Source: Akanthomyces muscarius (taxonomy: Eukaryota > Ascomycota > Sordariomycetes > Hypocreales > Cordycipitaceae). Taken from it: DNA of 64,000 nucleotides. A model generated the notes under the pieces. That model had not been told where the DNA came from. It saw nothing but the letters and a program-made list of their open reading frames with translations, and searched no databases. The stretch lies in contig NC_079241.1 in the NCBI RefSeq assembly GCF_028009165.1, forward strand, positions 5,580,001-5,644,000, given 5' to 3'. A program made the position numbers and the translations under genes. Below, one piece after another: positions 47,757-60,493 of the stretch (its first letter is position 1; every line of letters begins with the position of its first letter).

Positions 47757-50700
47757 ATGAATGCGGCGGATGAGGACCTGGACAATAAGCTCCAGAAGAT
47801 CTCTACTGATCTTCTCGCGGACCTCGACAAGGCGCTCATCACGCATCTCCGCAAGCCTGACGGTAGCGGCGGCACAAGAGTGAGGTCCTTTGTCCGTGCC
47901 CGAGAGGGATTTGCGGCGACATGTGACGTGAGCATTTACCAAACCAATTTCGGGCTGTCTTGTGAGCGTGGCCGAAAGTGCTAACATTCTCCCATCAGGC
48001 AATTGACCACTTCCAAGAGCTCCCTCAGCTGCTTGACCCTCATCTCCCCAAATGGATCCCGCTTCTTTCCCAGTCGTACCTCGAGGACCTGACGACGCGG
48101 CGTCGCGGCGTCGTGAAGCGTGATGGCAGTGCCAAGTCCAAGGCCCTGGCCCCAGTCTCCTTTGCCATTGCCAAAATTCTTTACACATTTTGCAAGGTGC
48201 GCGGCGAAAAGGTCATTGTGCGGTTTCTCAATGCCGAGGCCAAGTACCTAGAGCTGCTGCTCTCCTCCGTCGAAGAGGCAGAGCTGCAAGCAGCGACGGC
48301 GGCGGCTACCGCCCCTGACCAAAGCGACGTGCTGTTCACGCCGGAGAAGAAGGGGTGGGCGTGGGAGCAACGGTATATTGTGCTGCTGTGGCTGTCACAT
48401 CTGCTTTTTGCGCCGTTCGACCTGGCCACCATCTCTTCGGTCGAGTTTGAGGAGAGTGCGGTGCCGCAGATTGATGGGCTGAAGCTGCAGGATAACCTGC
48501 CCGGCATCACGTTGCGGATTCTGCCGTTGGCCATCAAGTATCTCGCGGCGGCTAGTAAAGAGCGCGACGCAGCCAAGGCGTTGCTTGTGAGAATGGCGAT
48601 GCGCAAGGATATGCAAGCGCTCGGCGTACTGAGTAGCCTGGTCGGCTGGGCCATCACCTCGCTCCGTCGGCGAAAGGGTGCCGAGCCGCGCTCATCATAC
48701 TTTTACCTCGGTGTCCTGTCGTTCCTCGCGGGAATTCTGCGATTGTCCTCTGAAACATCCGACTTGGACGCGCACCTCTCTTCCATCTTTACTGCCGTGC
48801 ATGCTCTTACGTTCAATGATACCGATGTGTCCAAAGCTGTCAATACGTTGGCTCTGGCGCGGAAAATGATCATCAAGGTTATCCGATTAGTTGTGGTTAC
48901 ATACCTCCGCAAAAGCAACCAGAGTATGCAGAGCATGGAGGTCACTGAAACCGCCATTGGGTACCTGCTGGAGAGCTTATCAGACAATGACACGCCTGTG
49001 CGCATGTCGGCGAGCAAGTCCCTGAGCGTCATTACTCTCAAGCTTGACCCTGATATGGCGTCTCAGGTCGTGGAAGCTGTGCTCGAGTCGCTCAATCGGA
49101 ACGTGCTCTGGAACAAGGAAGAGATCAAAAAGGGTGCACGACCTGTACGAGACTTGGCGGCTGTCAACCACTTGGAGTGGCACGGCCTCGTGCTCACCCT
49201 CTCACATCTTCTCTATCGGCGCTCACCACCTGCGAAGCAGCTGTCTGACATCATACACGCTTTACTGCTGGGTTTGTCTTTTGAGCAGCGATCTTTGGCG
49301 GGCACCAGCGTCGGTTCCAATGTTCGCGATGCGGCGTGTTTTGGCGTCTGGGCGATAGCCCGCCGCTACACCACTGCAGAACTACTCGCTGTCCCGATTG
49401 AGTCCGTATTCGCTGCCAAGGCGCACGCGTCGGATAGCTCCATCATCCAAGTTCTTGCGACCGAACTGGTCACTGCAGCTTGTCTCGATCCATTTGGGAA
49501 CATCCGCCGCGGCTCCTCGGCTGCTCTGCAGGAGCTCATTGGTCGCCACCCAGATACCGTCGAGCAAGGCATCTTGGTTGTGCAAAATGTAGACTATCAC
49601 GCTGTCGCCAGACGTTCGAGGGCGATCCAACAGGTGGCTTCAAATGCGACACGGCTCGCCCCTCAGTATGGTGATTCCCTCCTTCATGGTATTCTAGGCT
49701 GGCGTGGCGTCGGCGACATGGATGCACCATCTCGGAGAGACTCTGGCATCGCTTTTGGTGCTCTCACTACGATTATGCGAAAACACTCGCCGATAGAATA
49801 TGTCCGCTTCCAAGAGTCGTTTGATCTTATCCGGACCAGGCTCGTGGGGCTGGCGACAAGAAAAGTGGAAGAACGGCATGGCTTGCTGTTGTGCTTGTCC
49901 GCGCTTCTGGATCAGTTCCCAGTGTTTGAGGCGTCAGGTAGTGGAATGGACGCAACTGGAGTTACAGAAGTCTGCCACATCCTACAAGACTGCTACGATA
50001 CAAAGTATAGGCGGCCAGAGCTCATCGCAGAGGCAGCAAGCCGACTCGCTGTGTCAACCGTCCCTCTCTTGCAAGCGCTGTCAGGCTACCACTTGTCAGG
50101 TGAAGATCTGGAGCCTGGAGCACAGTTCCTGTCTCCCACACATCCCGACACGTATGTCAGATTCCTTGGAGCAATCCGCGGGAAGGAACCGCGGAATTCT
50201 ACTATGGCAAAACTTGCCTCGAAGCTTTCAAACGTTGTGGCTCCATGGCTCGACTTTACTGAGCCGGAAACTATCGAGGCCGCTTCCACCGCAGCTCTAC
50301 TTCTACTTATAATATCGACAGACGAAAATCGAACAAAGCTCTTGCTCGAGTGGGCCAAACTTGTCCAGTACCGCCCTGCGAGCCGCGCTGCTATCGTCGG
50401 GCAGGGCTACTTTCACGTGCTGGCCATGGCACAGCCTCTCGCCGAGGCTACATCTCAACACGGCGAATGGGATGATGTGGTGAGTGAGGCGTTTATTGCG
50501 CGCTGGATTGCTGACCGGCAGGTGGAAACGCGCGTGTCTCTCTTGCAGAGCCTGATTCGCGCTCGCGTCTTATGCAAAAAGCCACTTGCTTTCCTGCCTC
50601 TCCTAGTGGACGGTCTGAATGACTACACGACAAACGCCCGCGGAGACATCGGCTCGCAAGTACGCGTGCAGGCGCTCAGAGCGATCCAGGTGCTGTGGGA

Positions 50701-51605
50701 GCGCATCGCCGATGCGACAGGAGAGGAAGAATGGGTGGTGCAGTCGGTAGAAAAGCTATTCTACAGAACTCTGCGACTCTCAGTTGAGAAGCTGGACAGA
50801 GTCCGGCCAGAAGCGCAGTTGGCGCTGTCGCTGGTTATACAAAAGAGGTATATCCCACAGTATTCCCCAAAATTACCCCATATAGTCAGCTAACCTCTAC
50901 CACAATAGCGAAACAAACCTCGGCCAGCTGTCTGCCTCCTCTAAACAGTACTTTATGACACTCCTTGAACTCCTCTCCTATGGCGAACTGCACCTGTCCG
51001 TCGCCGTCACCGCCCGGTCCGACCCTGTCGCTTGGACATCGCAACTCATGGCCGGCCTCGTCACCTCGGCGGACACTGGCCAAGAAGAGCTTGTCATCAC
51101 GAGCCGCGCGGCCCTCACTACCTTTTGCCAGGCCGCTCCCGCGAACCTGCAGCAGGTCTGTGGCGCGCTCCTCCACAACCTGACGGCATACCAGTCCGAG
51201 GACCGCGTCGTCATCCCGACGCTCGAAGTGATTGCGTACCTCTTCCACACGGGGCTCTTTCAGCACTGCAAGCCCGAGACGGTCAACCTGCGGACTCTGT
51301 GTCTGCAGACGCAAAAAGTTGGCTACAAGACGGGCAGCGTGCGCAAGCTGCTCGCGTGTGTCAGGGTCTATGGCTGCGTGGCCGGGCTCGATGCGGCGCA
51401 GGGGCCGCCCGAGGCCAAGAAGAGACTGGGTGCGCTCATGTTTCATCCGTGGCCGCGGGTGCGCATGGCGGTGGTGGACGAGCTCTGGATGCTGGCGGGT
51501 GGTCAGGAGGATGGCGGCGTGGCGGACGTGTTGCTAGGTGTGGATTGGGGTAAGGCGGACAAGAGCAGCGTCAAATCCCTGGTTGAGAAGCTCCAGCTGG
51601 TATAG
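47757..51605 (+). CDS. Tubulin-folding cofactor D
   Basis: Three exons, 47757-47927, 47999-50847 and 50909-51605, give 1238 residues, close to the family length of about 1200. Introns are 71 and 61 nt, GT-AG. The protein is a helical repeat array (HEAT-type). Recognisable blocks include RRGVVKRDGSAKSKALAPVS near residue 90, VRDAACFGVWAIARRY in the middle and HPWPRVRMAVVDELWMLAG near the end, all features of TBCD. The cofactor takes beta-tubulin from cofactor A and joins the complex with cofactors C and E in which the alpha/beta heterodimer is formed. This is cytosolic and is normally required for microtubules. The last exon is more G+C-rich than the middle. No lesion was seen. Confidence 0.9.
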
Positions 51606-51779
51606 TAAAGAGTAGGACAAGAAACCAGTGAGAAATATCAAGATAACTAAACATGGAGCTAAAGTTGAAAACCCCTATATTTTAATCCATATAAGAATAA
51701 TTTAGTGGTAGCTTAATGGGTACCGCGGCTACCGCCAACGACTAGTATTTCTTTGTCATACAGAACCGACACCTAACGC
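51606..51779. other. Short spacer
   Basis: AT-rich space after the tubulin cofactor D gene and before the NRPS remnant, with no recognisable feature. Confidence 0.4.
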
Positions 51780-52470
51780 AAGCAGCCATTACGAAATGTC
51801 TCGCTTCTGAAAATGAACAACTTGACAAGTGACGACAGAACCGGAATTCCGGCTATCCAGTCTTCCATGCAAACAATCTCACATTGTGTGTCAAGGCAAT
51901 CTTTTGTCGAGACCGTTTGGATTTGAGGCACCAAGTACGACAGGAATACTTGTACATAGTTTCCGCAACCAGAGGGGGCAAATATGCAGCAAGTATATCA
52001 ACCGCGTCAGCCATTTTGGCACAAATCTCTGCCAGTTGCGACGCATCGAATCTTTGCGGAAGACGCACGGAGATGTAATTCCATTCGGTTCGCGGTGTGC
52101 CTAGAGAACGACGAACCACGTACTTTTGCAAATCTGTAAGTGGCAAAATATCGGCGATGATGTCTGCTGGCAGAGACAATAAATTGGCAACACTGTCTTT
52201 GCTGGGTAACACCATATCTTCTTCTGAGTCCGCGAAGTTCGATGAGTGCGTTTGATCACAGCTCACCAAATCGTCGCCATTCAGTAGCCGTGCTTTCTTT
52301 CCCGTGACGGCCGATGCCATGTCACGCAGCTGCGGAGATTGGAACACGAGCGCCATGGTCAGCGGTAAACCGTTTTCACACCCAACTCCCACCAAACGAA
52401 TGGCAGTGAGTGAGTCTCCGCCAAGGTCAAGAAAGCTGGTTTCGCGGCATCCTCAATGCTCTGACAACAA
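51780..52470 (-). pseudogene. Decayed nonribosomal peptide synthetase fragment (carrier plus start of condensation domain)
   Basis: On the minus strand the sequence reads as the end of a carrier-domain helix (SIEDAA, near 52443-52460), then the carrier signature FLDLGGDSLTAIRLVG. The phosphopantetheine Ser codon is at 52411-52413. A linker follows, then the start of a condensation domain (LPLTDLQKYVVRRSLGTP near 52091-52142, then a block ending VDIL). Two breaks are visible. One is between SIEDAA and the LGGDS block (about 52434-52443). The other is between VDIL and a downstream block GNYVQVFLSYLVPQIQ, which lies in another frame (about 51970-51995). The second block continues to about 51790. 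No adenylation domain or rest of the condensation domain is found on either side. The identification rests on motif order and spacing typical of NRPS; the product of the original enzyme is unknown. Confidence 0.82.
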
Positions 52471-52477
52471 TCGGAAA

Positions 52478-53325
52478 ATGCTACCCTCGCAGGCGGAAGA
52501 GAAGCGCAGAAAGGATCGTATAAGCAAGCGGCTTTCGAGTAAGTCAAGTCACGCCATTTATAGGATAGCCGCCTAATCTGGAGTCAGGAGAGCGGCAAAG
52601 AAAACAGAAACAGCGAGATCAAGAAATTCAAGAGTCCTCGGACGTCTTTGCGCCGAACCTTATCCCCGACTCTGGGTTGGAGGTTTCGCAGCTCAGCGAG
52701 TCTCCCACCTACCACTACAGCTCACTTCCTCGACCAGAAGCGGGTGATGTGATAGTCTTAAGTCATCACGGCGATCTTTTTACCAAACTCGGGCTCACGC
52801 GAGCAGGAAGCGAGGAGTACAATTTTTCTCATGGGAGGCTCTATGGCCTCTGGCTCACCTGAACTGAACGAGTCACCTGTATCAGCAGACATTACCTGCA
52901 GCTTTGGGGAAATCGGTCCGCAAGCCCCGGCGAATTATTCCTCCAACCCATCAAATTGTGGTTTTGCAACAACCGTTTCTGCAAGCGGAAGTATAAATCG
53001 ATCGAAGACGAACGCGAATAATCGCATTTTACAAACAAAACCACAAACTACACTACATCGAGCTACTGTCACGGGAGACGTAAAAATTGTGCAGCTTTTA
53101 TTGCGGCATGGGGCAACTGTTGATGCGCAAAACCGCGAGGGAATGACGCCTCTTCACTTGGCTGTCCATTGCCGAGATAGAGTGCTGGTAACACTGCTAC
53201 TACAGTGCAATGCGGACTTGGAGACTCGGGACGCCCCGGGGCCAGGAACTGTTGATCTTGCTGTAGAGGCAGGGGACTTTTCCTTTCTGGAGCTCTTGAT
53301 TTCTCACGGAACAAGCATAAAATGA
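52478..53325 (+). CDS. bZIP-ankyrin (bANK) transcription regulator
   Basis: Three exons can be built: 52478-52538, 52588-52748 and 52807-53325, giving 246 residues. The first intron (49 nt) has GTAAGT, a CTAAT branch-like element and CAG. Splicing joins AEEKRRKDRISKRL to RERQRKQKQRDQ, forming a bZIP-like basic region. The C-terminal part holds about three ankyrin repeats (TTLHRATVTGDVKIVQLLL, then TPLHLAVHCRDRVLVTLLL, then a partial one). A basic region at the N-terminus plus C-terminal ankyrins, without a leucine zipper, is the bANK class seen in ToxE-type regulators of fungal NRPS clusters. The second intron uses a mediocre GTGATA donor and is less certain; without it the ankyrin part is out of frame. 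The gene ends 77 bp from the convergent MFS transporter and starts beside the NRPS remnant. Regulation of a neighbouring cluster is inference. Confidence 0.72.
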
Positions 53326-53402
53326 ATGATCTTGGGCTTTATGTGTAGCAAATAGATTCTCTCATTCTATTTCGACACCAACGGCTCTGTATTGCCTGTG
53401 TT

Positions 53403-54982
53403 TCATTCTTCTTCAGTCGCTAATGCCGCACACTGATGGGAGTCGCTGGTCACATCTATGCACCAAGCTAGAGATGTCGCAGCCAAGAAGAGTACTGCTG
53501 CGATAATGTAAGGAAGGCCGGACCACAGGCCATCCAAATCCATGCCACGCTGAAAAGCAGCAGCCATAGACGGTCCAGCGACTAGTGATCCGACACCCGT
53601 CGCGAGACCAATCTGGCCATTGAGGAGTCCAACTTGTGCTTGAGATCCCAGGGCATTGGCGAGACTTCTCAAGCTTGCTAGGTATCCGGAACCTAGAGAT
53701 AGTATCGTGATGCCGATAATGAAAGGGGCGGCTTGCGCCGCGAAAGCCATGAGAGCCAGACCCACCGTCCAGCATAAGACACTGCATTTCACGATTCGTA
53801 GCTCTTTGGCGGCTGCTGGCATGGTTTGGCTCAGGACTCGAGAGATGTAGGGCAAGAACGCAAGGAGGCAAATAATATTGATAGTCCCTTTCAATGACAG
53901 CAATAGGCTGGCTTTCGGAATGGACCAAGAAAACCGCCTAGAGGCATATTGTGTCATGAGCAATAGAGCCGACGACCCAATACTCGCCATGAGAAAGGAC
54001 GCAAATATTAACGTTGTATTAAAACCGCCTTTGCTGCTTCTCGCGGCTTTCCAGTGGGAATTTATGGCGCTGGCCAAGTCTGAGCACTCTTGCCAGAGGC
54101 TGTGACGTTTCGCAGGTGTACCACTGGCCATACTTCCGGCAGCCAGGGGAACAGAAGCTGCAGTGGCCGCATGTTTTGTTTCTGGAAGGAAAAGTGCTGC
54201 CAAAAGTCCAACGGCCTGGCATCCAACTCCCGCCAGGAAAGGCAGCCACGGTGTCCAGGTCATGAGCGACGCGCTCAGCGGAGTCGCCAAAATTTCTCCG
54301 ATGATGATTGCGGCGCTGAGATAAAAGTATACAGATGCGCTGTTATAATATTAGCCATCATTCGAAACGAGGGTTTGAGAAAGTATACACACCGTTCGGC
54401 TGCTGAAAATGTGTCAGTGATGATGGAATATGCCATTGATGTGGCAGTTCCCGGCCCGCCCCCCATCACTTGGAAGATTGGCGTAAGCCAAATCAGTTTA
54501 AGCGATGACGACGCCGTGAAGCTCCACCAAGTGAGCAGACGGATAGAGGCATCCTCCAGGAAAAGGCCACCCAACGAGAGTAGTAATACGGGCTTGCGCC
54601 CGATACGGTCCGCTACCCATCCGTAGAAGAGAACCAGCGCAATGCCAGGAATCTGGTCAAAGGTTCCTTTCCAGCCGAACAGGATGGCAAGTTCGGATTG
54701 AACCTGCGGCGATTTACAAATTGGGTCGTCGTCGTCGGCAGCTACGCGACCAAAAAGCCGACCACAGATGAGCGACTCGTAGAGTTTTAGCTGCGGCGCG
54801 AGCGAGAGCGCGTTTCCAAAGTCTGCCGCGACAACAGACACTAGAACAATGCTCAGCACGAGATGACGGTGTCGGCGCGCTGTTGCAGCTGCAGCTGCAG
54901 CTGCAGCCTCACACGGAGTGCTGCTCTGCTCGCGGTCGCGATCGTCAGCGAGCAAGGCGGTCGTTTCTGTAGGAGACGTCAT
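53403..54982 (-). CDS. MFS transporter
   Basis: Two exons, 54982-54393 and 54339-53403, give 508 residues; the intron has GTGTGT and CAG (53 nt). The pattern of hydrophobic helices fits a 12-helix major facilitator. The loop motif A is GWVADRIGRKP at about residues 122-132, and a large cytosolic loop lies in the middle (about 240-290). The N-terminus has an Ala run of eight residues encoded by GCAGCT repeats (54883-54908) and a large loop DDDDPICKSPQVQSE between the first helices. No substrate-specific feature is visible. It resembles fungal MFS carriers next to secondary-metabolite genes. Export of the lost peptide is possible but not shown. Confidence 0.85.
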
Positions 54983-55830
54983 GGGCGGTGGACTAGGCTG
55001 CCGAGTGGTGAAAAGTTGACAGTTTTTGGCCGACTAAGGATGCATTTAGCCACTGACTTTGCCTATTTATCATCGGCAGCTGCGCCTGCCTGTTTGCGTC
55101 TAGTGTTGGACCTTTTGAAAGTCAGGCTGTGATGCGCTCGCGTTTACGTGCCTGGCATCCTATACTTCGCCTTGGCCCCCCACTTTGTGTAATGCGAGGT
55201 CAACCTGCATATCAGCTCATGAACCAAGCGTGCGATCCTTGAGCCTTCCTTCGAATGAATACGGAAGAATGAATACGGAAGAATGAATACGGAAGAATGA
55301 ATACGGAAGAATGAATACGGAAGAATGAATACGGAAGAATGAATACGGAAGAATGAATACGGAAGAATGAATACGGAAGAATCATGTATCCATCACTATG
55401 TGCGATATACTCCCACCCCGGTGTACGGCTGTCTGTTAAGTTGTAGACGCGGGATTTGTAGTTGTATATTTATGTTGTAAGGTCTCATGTTCACTTGTAT
55501 GAAGACAAAACAGGGTGAGAAAAGTAGACAAAGTTTTGCCCAAAGAAGACCCGCGAAAAGGACATTACGCACAACAGTATCGACACGACACCGAACCTAG
55601 TCCGCTAAGCAATTACGGCCAAAGGAAATGCAGTCGTCCATTATGACATTTACAGGCAATGGCCAACTCCTCACACGGACTACTTGTTGCTGTCCTGGAA
55701 TCAGTTGCTTGAACTCATTCGAGATGGCTCATTTGAGATCAACGGCGAGTCACTTCAAGTTGCAGCTGTAGTAGCAACGGCGAGGTAAGCTTCATTTCTA
55801 AATTCGCAGACTAAATACACCGCTCGCTAT
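54983..55830. other. Spacer with minisatellite
   Basis: Between the start of the MFS gene and the end of the ABC transporter 2 gene. It contains a nine-copy 14-bp repeat (55257-55382), described separately. No gene is seen. Confidence 0.6.
55257..55382. repeat. 14-bp minisatellite, nine perfect copies
   Basis: The unit GAATACGGAAGAAT is repeated nine times head to tail with no mismatch seen, then ends abruptly. It begins after a short half-unit (GAAT). It lies in non-coding DNA of the accessory region. Perfect identity suggests recent expansion. Confidence 0.93.
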
Positions 55831-58800
55831 TTAAGACGTTCCGGCTTGCCACAATGCATGAAATCGTGACCCCTGTTGCTGAGAGAGTATTCTCGGATTT
55901 CCCATTTCCACTATGCGTCCCTGATCCATGACAACAACTCGGTCATAGTCAATAATCATGTTGAGTCTGTGCGCTATCGCGACAACAGTGTATTCTGCAA
56001 ACTGGATTCCGATGACTTCTTGCATCACGAGCTCCGTCTCCTGGTCGATGTTAGCACTGACTTCGTCGAGCAGCAATATTCCACCATTTTGGTCTGCCAC
56101 GCCCTCTCGGTTGTTGTCTGATTGCTTGACACGTAGCTTGTGACGCACGATGGCTCTTGCAAAAGCAAAAAGCTGCTTCTGCCCGGCGCTCAGGGAGCTA
56201 GGATTCATGGCTGATTTCAGTCCGCCACGGTCGTGGACGTATGGCCAAAGGGTGACTGCTTCTAGAGCGGCTTGGCAATCATGAGCGCCGGCTTCGGCGT
56301 ACGGATCTAGATTTTCATGGAATGTTGTACCGTCGGCCAGGAAAACAGCGTCCTGTGAAACTGCGATGAATCGAGCCCGTAGAGTGGAACGGTCTATCTG
56401 GTCCAGCGACAGGCCATCGACCATGATCGAGCTCCCTTCAGTGGGCATTGGATCCAGGAGCTTCAGGAGCAGAGAAATGAGGCTGGATTTCCCACTGCCT
56501 GTGCGCCCGCATATCGCGACTTTTTCACCATCGCGAATCGTCAAGTTTACGTCTCGCAACGCAAGCGCGGGCGGTTTGCCTTCAGTTGGCGTACTGTTTC
56601 ATTGCGGATTAGCAGGGACCTTTGAATGCGCTGTCGAGAATCACTACCTGTAACTTGCGGAAACATTGGTAAGTTCGAGACTCGCATGTTGTGGCCAGCC
56701 TTCGCGTGGTTTGACTACCTCCGAAGTCTTTTCCTCTGAAGTCACATTGGCACCAAAATCTTGTAGCCTTGTGATTGCACCTGTCATTTGTTAGGGGCGG
56801 GCGGTCGACTCTAACTGAGTAGCTCTTACCAAGACTGGTTTCAAGCAGTGTCAAGAAAATCACGATTTGCGTCAATTGATCTCCAAACGACATCAAGGTC
56901 ACGAGTGAAGCGCCTGTAAAGCCTGTACTGGATCGAAGCGTAACGGCAAGCGAGCTCAGCATAGCAGCGATGACCATCGTAACAAAGTCCAGCACCATGA
57001 TAAGCCAGTTCTGAACAATACCAAGAAGGTACGCCGGTCGCTGGGAGTCGTCTAGAAGTTGGAAACCGTTCTCGATGTGTTTGTGCACAAGTCCAAAAGC
57101 GCGAATCGTGACGATTCCTTTCGAAATGTCCGTAAAGTGGGCACTGCAATTCGGTCAGTCATGTAGTTGCTCTTGGAACTGCCAGAACGGAAGGAGGGTG
57201 TGGCTTACTACAAGGGGCTCTTGGCTTCCAGATCCAAGAGCCGTAGCTGACGAGAAGTCCTCAAGTAGAAATGCTGAATAACCCAGAGAAATCCGATGAG
57301 AAAGGGATAGCTGATGGCCAGATAAGGCGACGTGGTGGTGAGGACCGCAGCTTGACCAATAGCCATGGACACTGACATGACGCCATTGAGGAGCGCACTT
57401 GGAAGCTCCGTGTCAATCAAGTTCATATCCTGGCTAAACAGATTGACAATTTTTCCTTGATCTGTCTCTGCAAAGAACGACATGTGAGCGCGCCGAAGTG
57501 TGCTCAGCGCATCGCCATGCAACTTGGCCCCGGCTTTCGAAACAGCAACATAGAATACCGTGATGCCAAGTCCAGCCAGACACATAATGCAGCCCACGTT
57601 AAGAAGCGCATAAATTCCAATGTAATAAGTTGAAGAATGCTGAGACGCGGATGAAGACATGTCATTACCCCAGTAAGTCAACCAGACAGTTGGGAAGTTT
57701 TGCGAGAAACCAATCGCAGCACCCCAGACAAGAATTGAGAGAGAAAGCATATAGCCGACAGTTTGAAGATAATGCTTGTATGTGCCATGACCTCCCTTTT
57801 GTCGCTTTGAGTCTTGGCCGAAACCTTTTGGCTCGCTTTTGATTGCATCTTCTTGCAATGGCTCCTGAAGCCCATCATTGGCAGAGGTGCTGATTGCATC
57901 CTGCTCTGCCACAACACAATCCACAGTATCTGTGTAGCGTGTCTTGATGTACCCGTTTTCAAGTTGCATGAGTTCATAGAAGGACCCCTGTTCAACAACG
58001 CTTCCATCCGGCCCTAAAGCCAGAATGAAATCAGCATGTGAAAAGTGCATCGTGATGTTGGAACATAGGATGACAGTGCATTGACGTTGCTGCTGCAGCC
58101 CTCCACTTCCAAATACATTTTTGAAGAGCTGCTTTGCCGTTTTGTTATCAAGGCCACTAAACACGTCATCCAGTATGATCAGACTTGTGTTTGCGAACAA
58201 AGCTCGCGCTAGGGCGAGACGCTGTTTCTGCCCCCCTGACAGAGCGATGGCGTTGCTTCCGATATTCGTTTGGTCGCCAAGAGGAAGTGATTCGGACTGG
58301 AGGTCTGATTGCAACAAGGTCGCATGTAAAACCTCGTCGTATCTTGCTTTGTCGGGACAGTGTCCACCCAGCACATTGTCCTTGATGGTGCCGTTGAAAA
58401 GAATTGGTTCTTGGCTGCAGTAGGCTATAGGGGCGCTCTTGTTGTCGATGATGATATCCCCGGTGTGGAATGGAACCTCGCCAAGCAACGCGCTGCACAA
58501 GGTTGACTTGCCGGACGCGGTGGAACCGCAGATTATAGTAAACGTGCCCGGTCGAATCTGCATGTCGATGTCCTTGAGGGTCATGTTGCCTGCTTCCCAG
58601 CCAAAACTCCCGTTGCGTACGCTGATGCCACGGCCGGCACGAGCATCATTGTTTTCCTTTTTCTCAGGTTCGCCATTGGAAGATCGGAAATCTTTTCTGG
58701 GTTCTGTTTCTAAGAAGTTTTGAATCCGACTAATACAAGCGACAGCTGAAACGAACTGGGGAATGTCTTGGAATAGCTGGGAGAGAGGGTTTGCCAGTAG

Positions 58801-60493
58801 TACCATATACGAGAGAGAAGTGAATATCTTGACCGAGTCGAGGGACTTTTGTGTGACGGCAAAGGTAAATACGGGCGACATAAGCAATGGAACAAAGCCA
58901 ATTACTGCCGAGACGACGAGCAGCCCTCGGAAGCGGCTTCCAGCAGCCAGCTCTTCGACGCGGAGATTCTGGATGGAGTTGATGATTGGTGTAGCTAGGT
59001 TTGACATTCTCAACGCCTTCATTCGCGCGACAAGAGATGATGTCAGACCTGTCCTTTTCTGAACAGAATCCATCCAGTTCTTCTGCGCACTTCCAATATA
59101 TCTGACTGTCAGAGCAATGACGCCGGCGCAGCATGTCACAACAATAACGGGAGCTAAAAAGGCAAGACCCAATTGCCTGTATAGCAGCCAGCTTGCAAGG
59201 CCAATCTCAATAGGGCTTGCCCATAGATTGTGCATGGATCTCAAGCCAAAGCGAATACGCTCTAGGTCTGCGCTCATGAGGGTCAGAGCTTCAGGCTCAT
59301 CGCCAGTTTGGGGTATTTCAGTGGATTTGACGTAAATGGCGGAGACCAAGCCTATCACTGTTAGATGAAACAGATCCGCAGAGAAATTCGCAAGGGTTTC
59401 TTACATCCGCGCACCATTTGAAGTGATCGGGTGCGTAAATACAAATATGTCGCCATGGAGAAAGCCATGCCACCATATATCAATATGCTTGCGCCAATCA
59501 ACCCATATCCTGTATTTTGTGATTCTTTGCTGCGACTTTGAGAGAGAAAGTCGAGAAGTGTATTGATGAAGAATGGTTGGCAAAAGGTGAAGCCGACGAC
59601 GGATAAACGTGGCGGCACGGCGAGCAGCAAAGACACGGCTATCGTGCGGGCCAGAGCTCTTAACAGCCCATTCTTGTCTCTTTTGAGCAAATCATAGTCC
59701 AGGTTCTGAGCGAAGTTGTGGTATAACTTTCGGCTCCTCATCGCAGTGTCGAGTGGAAACAGTCCTTCTAGGTGCAGGATCTCTCTATAGCCCTGGAGAA
59801 ACAGCGAATTGACCCATGCGTAGGCGCCTAGGCTAATGAGACCCGAGGTCTCTTCGGGGCTGTGCGTTTTATCGTCGTGCCACCGAATCCATTTCCTCTT
59901 GTGTACAGATTCTAGAGCCAGATACATGGCCTTGGTAGCGGTCGCGGCGGTAAAGACTGCTGCGACGGCCTTTTCTCGTCCAACAGCCGAGGCCAGCCAA
60001 AAGGTTCGACACCGAGCAATGTCGAGAAACGTGGTCATCAAGAGATACCCGGCTAGTAGCAGAGATGGCCGTGGTGATCTTTGGTGCTCGAGATAGGACA
60101 AAGCTGTCATGCACAAGGCGGCCAACAATGGACACGCCATGGCGGCAACCAAGGTCGGGGCTGAATCGACGGGCTGCGTCGTTACAAGTGCAACAAGTGC
60201 CACCTGCAAGCATGAAAAAATGATTGATGTAATCTGTATGAATTAGATTCCCGGGTTGTCAGGCTATTAGTGTAGTCGCATACCATTTTGGGGTAGAGAA
60301 CGCCGCCCGACTGAACCATGGCCGGTCTCTGCCGCAGCCGAAGCAAGCGCATCAACGACACGACTACAAACGCAGCCGATGGTGCAATTGCAAAAGTCAG
60401 ATTTTCAAAGTGTATCGTGAAATCAAACCCGTCGCGGCAGTTTCGCACGCTAGGTCCAATTGAGGCATCGTCGCCACACTTGGAGAAGAGCAT
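55831..60493 (-). CDS. ABCC-type (MRP-like) full ABC transporter 2
   Basis: Six exons, 60493-60284, 60203-59405, 59357-57209, 57143-56830, 56780-56648 and 56593-55831, give 1455 residues. All five introns are GT-AG and in frame. The N-terminus (CGDDASIGPSVRNCRDGFDF) is that of fungal ABCC proteins with an extra membrane domain. NBD1 has Walker A GSTASGKS, signature LSGGQKQRLALARAL and Walker B LIILDDVFSGLD, with Asp in place of the catalytic Glu. NBD2 has GRTGSGKS, LSAGQKQLFAFARA and ILLLDEVSANID; the D-loop region SANID differs from the usual TSSVD. The protein should pump organic anions or metabolites at the plasma or vacuolar membrane. It lies within the accessory block, so it could be the exporter of the lost pathway. 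The other window ABCC protein is only distantly similar in its N-terminal part. Confidence 0.9.

Follow-up and report, generated by a model that had tools for sequence, protein, structure and literature searches.

A probable pseudogene remnant of a multimodular NRPS gene in Akanthomyces muscarius

A short stretch of NRPS-like sequence lies on the minus strand of the Akanthomyces muscarius window (the whole stretch of DNA analysed here, 64,000 nucleotides at C1:5580001-5644000), and the question it raises is whether it belongs to a complete synthetase gene, to a small gene in its own right or to the debris of a far larger one. An earlier note on this DNA had described a carrier domain and the start of a condensation domain here, and both the position and the strand that it gave proved correct: a single stop-free frame of 199 codons, referred to below as the relic, runs through the site (Table 1). 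We conclude that the relic is very probably a pseudogene remnant of a multimodular fungal NRPS gene, in which about 460 nt can still be recognised as the coding sequence of an internal carrier-condensation junction.

Table 1 Positions of the relic, its parts and the neighbouring genes in the window
Feature	Position	Strand	Basis and remarks
Stop-free frame with the NRPS relic, 199 aa	52452-51856	-	Flanked by stops at 52453-52455 (before) and 51853-51855 (end)
Partial peptidyl-carrier (T) domain	52309-52443	-	PF00550; LGGDS core at 52425-52411
Start of a condensation domain, about 55 residues counted from ILPLTDLQ	51988-52152	-	Own-genome profiles; homology ends abruptly
Frame tail without NRPS homology	51856-51987	-	Profile alignment stops at residue 155; same tail in P0001
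Tubulin-specific chaperone D (TBCD), left flank, two open frames	47978-51605 (47978-50893, 50955-51605)	+	P0122; second frame by position
Predicted 237-aa ankyrin protein, divergent (head-to-head) neighbour of the relic	52478-53325	+	Hand-made gene model
MFS-like transporter, two overlapping open frames, intron likely	53403-55033	-	PF07690 with 26.9 and 23.7 bits, each below the cut-off of 33.4
ABCC-like ABC transporter, four open frames	55834-60242	-	Pfam domains

A carrier domain joined to a condensation start

Residues 4-48 of the relic matched the PP-binding profile (PF00550) with 28.5 bits, above the curated cut-off of 20.8, and the Ppant serine motif LGGDS is present. The match spans profile positions 21-66 of 67, with the first ~20 positions missing, and the carrier domain with an LGGDS core that had been proposed earlier is thus upheld, though as a partial one. 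When the relic was used for a sequence search of the PDB, the top match was a bacterial carrier domain (HMWP2, E 0.0036). A linker leads from the carrier part to the condensation start, and the DNA of the relic is single-copy in the genome.

The condensation part escaped the standard model. PF00668 (Condensation) gave no match to the whole 199-aa frame at E <= 1 or to residues 61-199 alone at E <= 10, and none of the 62 Condensation matches that a genome-wide Pfam search listed is the relic. The profile-HMM search for both domains that the earlier note had suggested as a check was therefore borne out for PP-binding and not for Condensation. A profile built on eight condensation domains of mixed subtypes, each represented by its first 140 residues, also failed, with -1.5 bits for residues 61-199, a score reached by 552 of 1000 shuffled sequences; the reason may be that several stretches in this profile begin after the start motif.

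Profiles of the carrier-condensation junctions in the fungus's own genome, in contrast, matched the relic. The junction pool consisted of 22 LGGxS stretches in open frames of NRPS loci, or 15 after the removal of duplicates. Ten of these were retained by a motif rule (including two overlapping stretches of one locus), and the resulting profile scored the relic frame at 74.3 bits; among the 2220 pieces of a six-frame translation of the window, the runner-up had 5.2 bits. An 11-junction profile was obtained from the same 15 by removing four by hand: L005 (no true carrier motif by eye), L015 (an overlapping duplicate), and L001 and L002 (another condensation subtype by eye). This profile aligned with residues 3-155 of the relic at 81.1 bits (E 8.1e-24), a score that none of 1000 shuffles attained (best 5.0), and with residues 61-199 alone at 29.7 bits (E 3.5e-8), again without an equal among 1000 shuffles. 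Similarity to the relic had led to some of the loci behind these two profiles, so we built a relic-independent profile from seven stretches of loci chosen in other ways; two of the seven belong to one and the same domain (L007, with a 33-residue shift). Residues 61-199 reached 19.2 bits with it (E 8.8e-5; 0 of 1000 shuffles as high), and in the set of 2220 pieces the relic ranked first, with 18.1 bits against 5.6 for the second.

Open-frame stretches from NRPS loci, 25 in number and each 500 aa or longer, also served as tblastn queries against the window plus 40 kb downstream; these queries overlap each other, represent some of the NRPSs in the genome, and one of them is a long frame on the opposite strand of its locus (L004 -). 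All matches at E < 0.1 fell within 52446-51991, and eleven further matches, with E from 0.12 to 0.99, fell on scattered short stretches. Considering the relic-independent profile together with the tblastn matches, we take the condensation start to be real, and this part of the earlier description probably stands for about 55 residues on the strength of the own-genome profiles, which match where PF00668 and the mixed eight-domain profile do not. Three of the longest queries hold two, three and four AMP-binding stretches, so that a similarly conserved adenylation remnant should have been seen; at E < 0.1, neither an adenylation remnant nor a second NRPS remnant was found in the window plus 40 kb, in agreement with the adenylation domain having been noted as missing. 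As the relic was recovered by own-genome profiles and is unlisted in the genome-wide Pfam Condensation search, profiles made from a genome's own synthetases can recover relics that standard models miss.

Across the genome, 28 other places match the relic frame with 23-46% identity; E is below 0.001 for 19 of the 28, and all except one lie in open frames of at least 613 aa. The Condensation matches in the genome include others that are short or contain stops. The one at C2:1695033-1695392 lies in a 140-aa open frame and the one at C6:903469-904089 has one internal stop, and each may be a further NRPS remnant; at C5:697714-698073, a weak partial match (22.3 bits) lies in a 1395-aa frame.

The breaks on either side and the second copy

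The limits of the open frame and those of the NRPS homology disagree on both sides of the relic. The NRPS homology begins at ~52446, 6 nt inside the frame and shortly after the preceding stop, and ends at ~51988 (residue 155 of 199); the remaining 132 nt of the frame have no such homology. Pieces in other frames were compared with the 11-junction profile: 52456-52548 gave -3.3 bits (286 of 1000 shuffles as high), 51776-51997 gave -2.9 bits (128 of 1000) and 52362-52583 gave no score. Of the two frame breaks described in the earlier note, the abrupt stops are therefore seen on both sides, but none of the other-frame pieces matched the profile better than shuffled sequences did.

Protein searches uncovered a second copy of the relic. 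Among 5.8 billion sequences, with length limits that exclude full-length NRPSs, the 199-aa query gave one match among 142 candidates at E <= 1: P0001, a protein of 167 aa from another NCBI contig (13,190 bp), 99% identical over 84% of the query. P0001 corresponds to residues 33-199 of the relic, with 165 of the 167 residues the same and differences only at residues 96 and 182, and it has the same non-homologous tail, with one changed residue, and the same end. The second break, being common to two assemblies, is thus probably no assembly error, while P0001 begins downstream of the first break and is uninformative on that one. The persistence of 165 of 167 residues in a second contig could mean a recent common origin or constraint. 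A scan of prokaryote genome contigs returned 51 stretches that matched a pattern, with no relative among them.

These observations bear on what the relic is. A complete, intron-bearing NRPS gene, or a complete gene spoiled by an assembly or sequencing error, is exceedingly unlikely, and nothing was found in its favour. The scan for GTRNG-type donors on the minus strand found none from 52700 to 52393, upstream of the carrier core, and the donors at 52123 and 52068, which lie ahead of the second break, could in principle bridge it, but an intron from either of them past 51988 would splice out recognisable condensation sequence. No other NRPS match at E < 0.1 was obtained in the window plus 40 kb, and the shared tail and end of P0001 argue against error, for the second break only. 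The published A. muscarius assembly, of 12 contigs, is described in the text available from PMC10323777 as based on PacBio reads and polished with short reads, which also speaks against an assembly error. The full NRPS gene with introns accounting for the frame changes, which the earlier note had named as one result that would overturn it, was not found, and the homology is confined to 52446-51988. A small living gene derived from an NRPS (167-199 aa, or spliced) with a new role would be in keeping with the 199 codons that are still open, with the near-identical predicted protein P0001 in a second contig and with possible splice sites at 51882 (donor) and 51807 (acceptor); however, the carrier domain lacks its first ~20 positions and the condensation homology stops after ~55 residues, and we consider such a gene very unlikely. 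The same domain lengths make a small NRPS-like enzyme unlikely, since an incomplete carrier and ~55 condensation residues would hardly work as either domain, and they favour the earlier view of a fragment of a far larger NRPS gene.

More serious is the possibility that the fragment was inserted from an NRPS elsewhere, by ectopic repair or transposon capture, and is unrelated to the neighbouring exporters. It would fit the single short NRPS piece in the window plus 40 kb, and among the selected frames scanned nearby (see below) no other enzyme typical of a known kind of biosynthetic cluster was seen. However, the genome holds no DNA-level donor copy, though a donor could have been lost, and the best-scoring paralogue of the relic is 31% identical to it over query residues 3-141. 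We regard an insertion as doubtful, and the remnant of a multimodular NRPS gene remains our preferred reading.

Decay of the relic

Under that reading, a loss of selection would have been followed by ordinary deletions and small changes. The deletions would have taken the adenylation domain and the remainder of the condensation domain, further small changes would have broken the frame, and the relic would now make no peptide. Repeat-induced point mutation (RIP) was considered as a cause of the decay and rejected: the RIP indices of the relic resemble those of the window (TA/AT 0.44 vs 0.68; composite -0.82 vs -0.59), and it carries no RIP signature. In the available text of a study of another A. 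muscarius isolate, the ratios do not indicate active RIP (PMC11354060). No repeat copies of 51610-53400 were found in the genome. Codon usage is uninformative on the coding status, with a CAI of 0.74 for the relic, at the 44th percentile of 2000 random stretches (MFS frames 0.76, ankyrin frames 0.72). Separately, the AT-rich interval 51606-51855 (GC 0.40), between TBCD and the relic, has the only positive composite RIP index (0.44) of nine intervals.

The neighbourhood and comparison with known systems

On the left, P0122 (Akanthomyces muscarius LMH87_006903) matches the TBCD frame 47978-50890 with 100% identity across 98% of the query. On the right, the predicted ankyrin protein has a K/R-rich N-terminus by eye, and its gene has two introns placed by hand (52539-52587 and 52817-52901). 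Pfam found PF00023 in two stretches (55.8 bits) and PF12796 in one (profile positions 21-90 of 90), counts from which diverged repeats may be missing, and no bZIP match at E <= 1 in this hand-made model. The ABCC-like transporter has two ABC_tran domains (71.7 and 73.4 bits) and one ABC_membrane domain (65.8) above the cut-off, whereas TMD0 (22.2) and a further piece of ABC_membrane (23.3) fall short of it; its first membrane domain was uncalled at E <= 0.01, and its 716-aa frame aligns over the full length with fungal ABC proteins. The middle ABC frame (57211-59358, minus strand) shares 80% and 79% identity with proteins from two assemblies, with the next best at 53% and the best paralogue in its own genome at 45%. 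The regulator and exporters that had been reported beside the fragment correspond to a predicted ankyrin gene, as a possible regulator, an MFS-like gene and an ABCC-like gene.

The Pfam scan covered selected frames, ten in the window and six downstream within 30 kb. Besides the ABC frames, it identified a GH76 enzyme, an anoctamin, a fungal rhodopsin domain, an Obg-like GTPase, an NSUN2-like methyltransferase, a Utp21-like protein and a PPIP5K-like protein; four of the scanned window frames had no family match at E <= 0.01, and the matches of one downstream frame (L018:5847-7031) were all weak. That the ankyrin, MFS and ABCC genes are the remainder of the same lost biosynthetic cluster is plausible, with the chances about even: their position agrees with the dismantled cluster suggested in the earlier note, but the window plus 40 kb yielded no second NRPS remnant. 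A further step, in which the synthetase was lost and the regulator and exporters were retained to protect against a peptide that competitors still produce, is improbable; were it true, former NRPS coding sequence would now serve as the promoter of the ankyrin gene, given that the proposed start codon lies 26 bp from the relic.

The relic offers small evidence of the loss of a peptide pathway in a biocontrol (insect-killing) fungus. It looks ordinary, as relics of NRPS genes are already well documented in fungi. In Aspergillus fumigatus, for example, the available text of PMC5711037 reports that 23 of 33 secondary-metabolite clusters carry frameshift or nonsense variants. For the A. muscarius isolate mentioned above, the part of PMC11354060 at hand names antiSMASH clusters for epichloenin A, metachelin, fumosorinone and others, none of which could be tied to the relic locus from that text, and among the papers listed in literature searches, judged by titles and the beginnings of abstracts, none was about the relic.

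The ankyrin gene invites comparison with TOXE. According to the available text of PMC3729494, this regulator combines an N-terminal bZIP with four ankyrin repeats, and its orthologues adjoin four-module NRPS genes in three fungi. As in the HC-toxin (TOX2) and apicidin clusters presented there, NRPS sequence is accompanied by an MFS gene and by an ankyrin protein whose N-terminus is basic. Unlike the situation in those clusters, as far as that text describes them, the neighbour here has no Pfam bZIP match and two ankyrin stretches instead of four repeats, and the NRPS is a fragment only. Because Pfam gives no bZIP and two ankyrin stretches, we do not assign the ankyrin gene to the TOXE type and regard the resemblance as superficial.

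Another parallel is provided by the Clavicipitaceae, for which the available text of PMC3585121 describes NRPS genes that have been lost or inactivated, along with remnants of alkaloid clusters (lps genes, perA). Those losses are documented there by many genomes and by repeat blocks, whereas the relic was examined in this one genome and no repeat was found at it; as in the cases described in that text, a partly deleted or inactivated synthetase gene remains in the genome. Compared with the NRPSs of its own genome, the relic is a junction only, without an adenylation remnant, a complete carrier or a complete condensation domain, but what is left has the same carrier-linker-condensation order as their junctions, with LGGxS and a PxTxLQ-like start motif in common.
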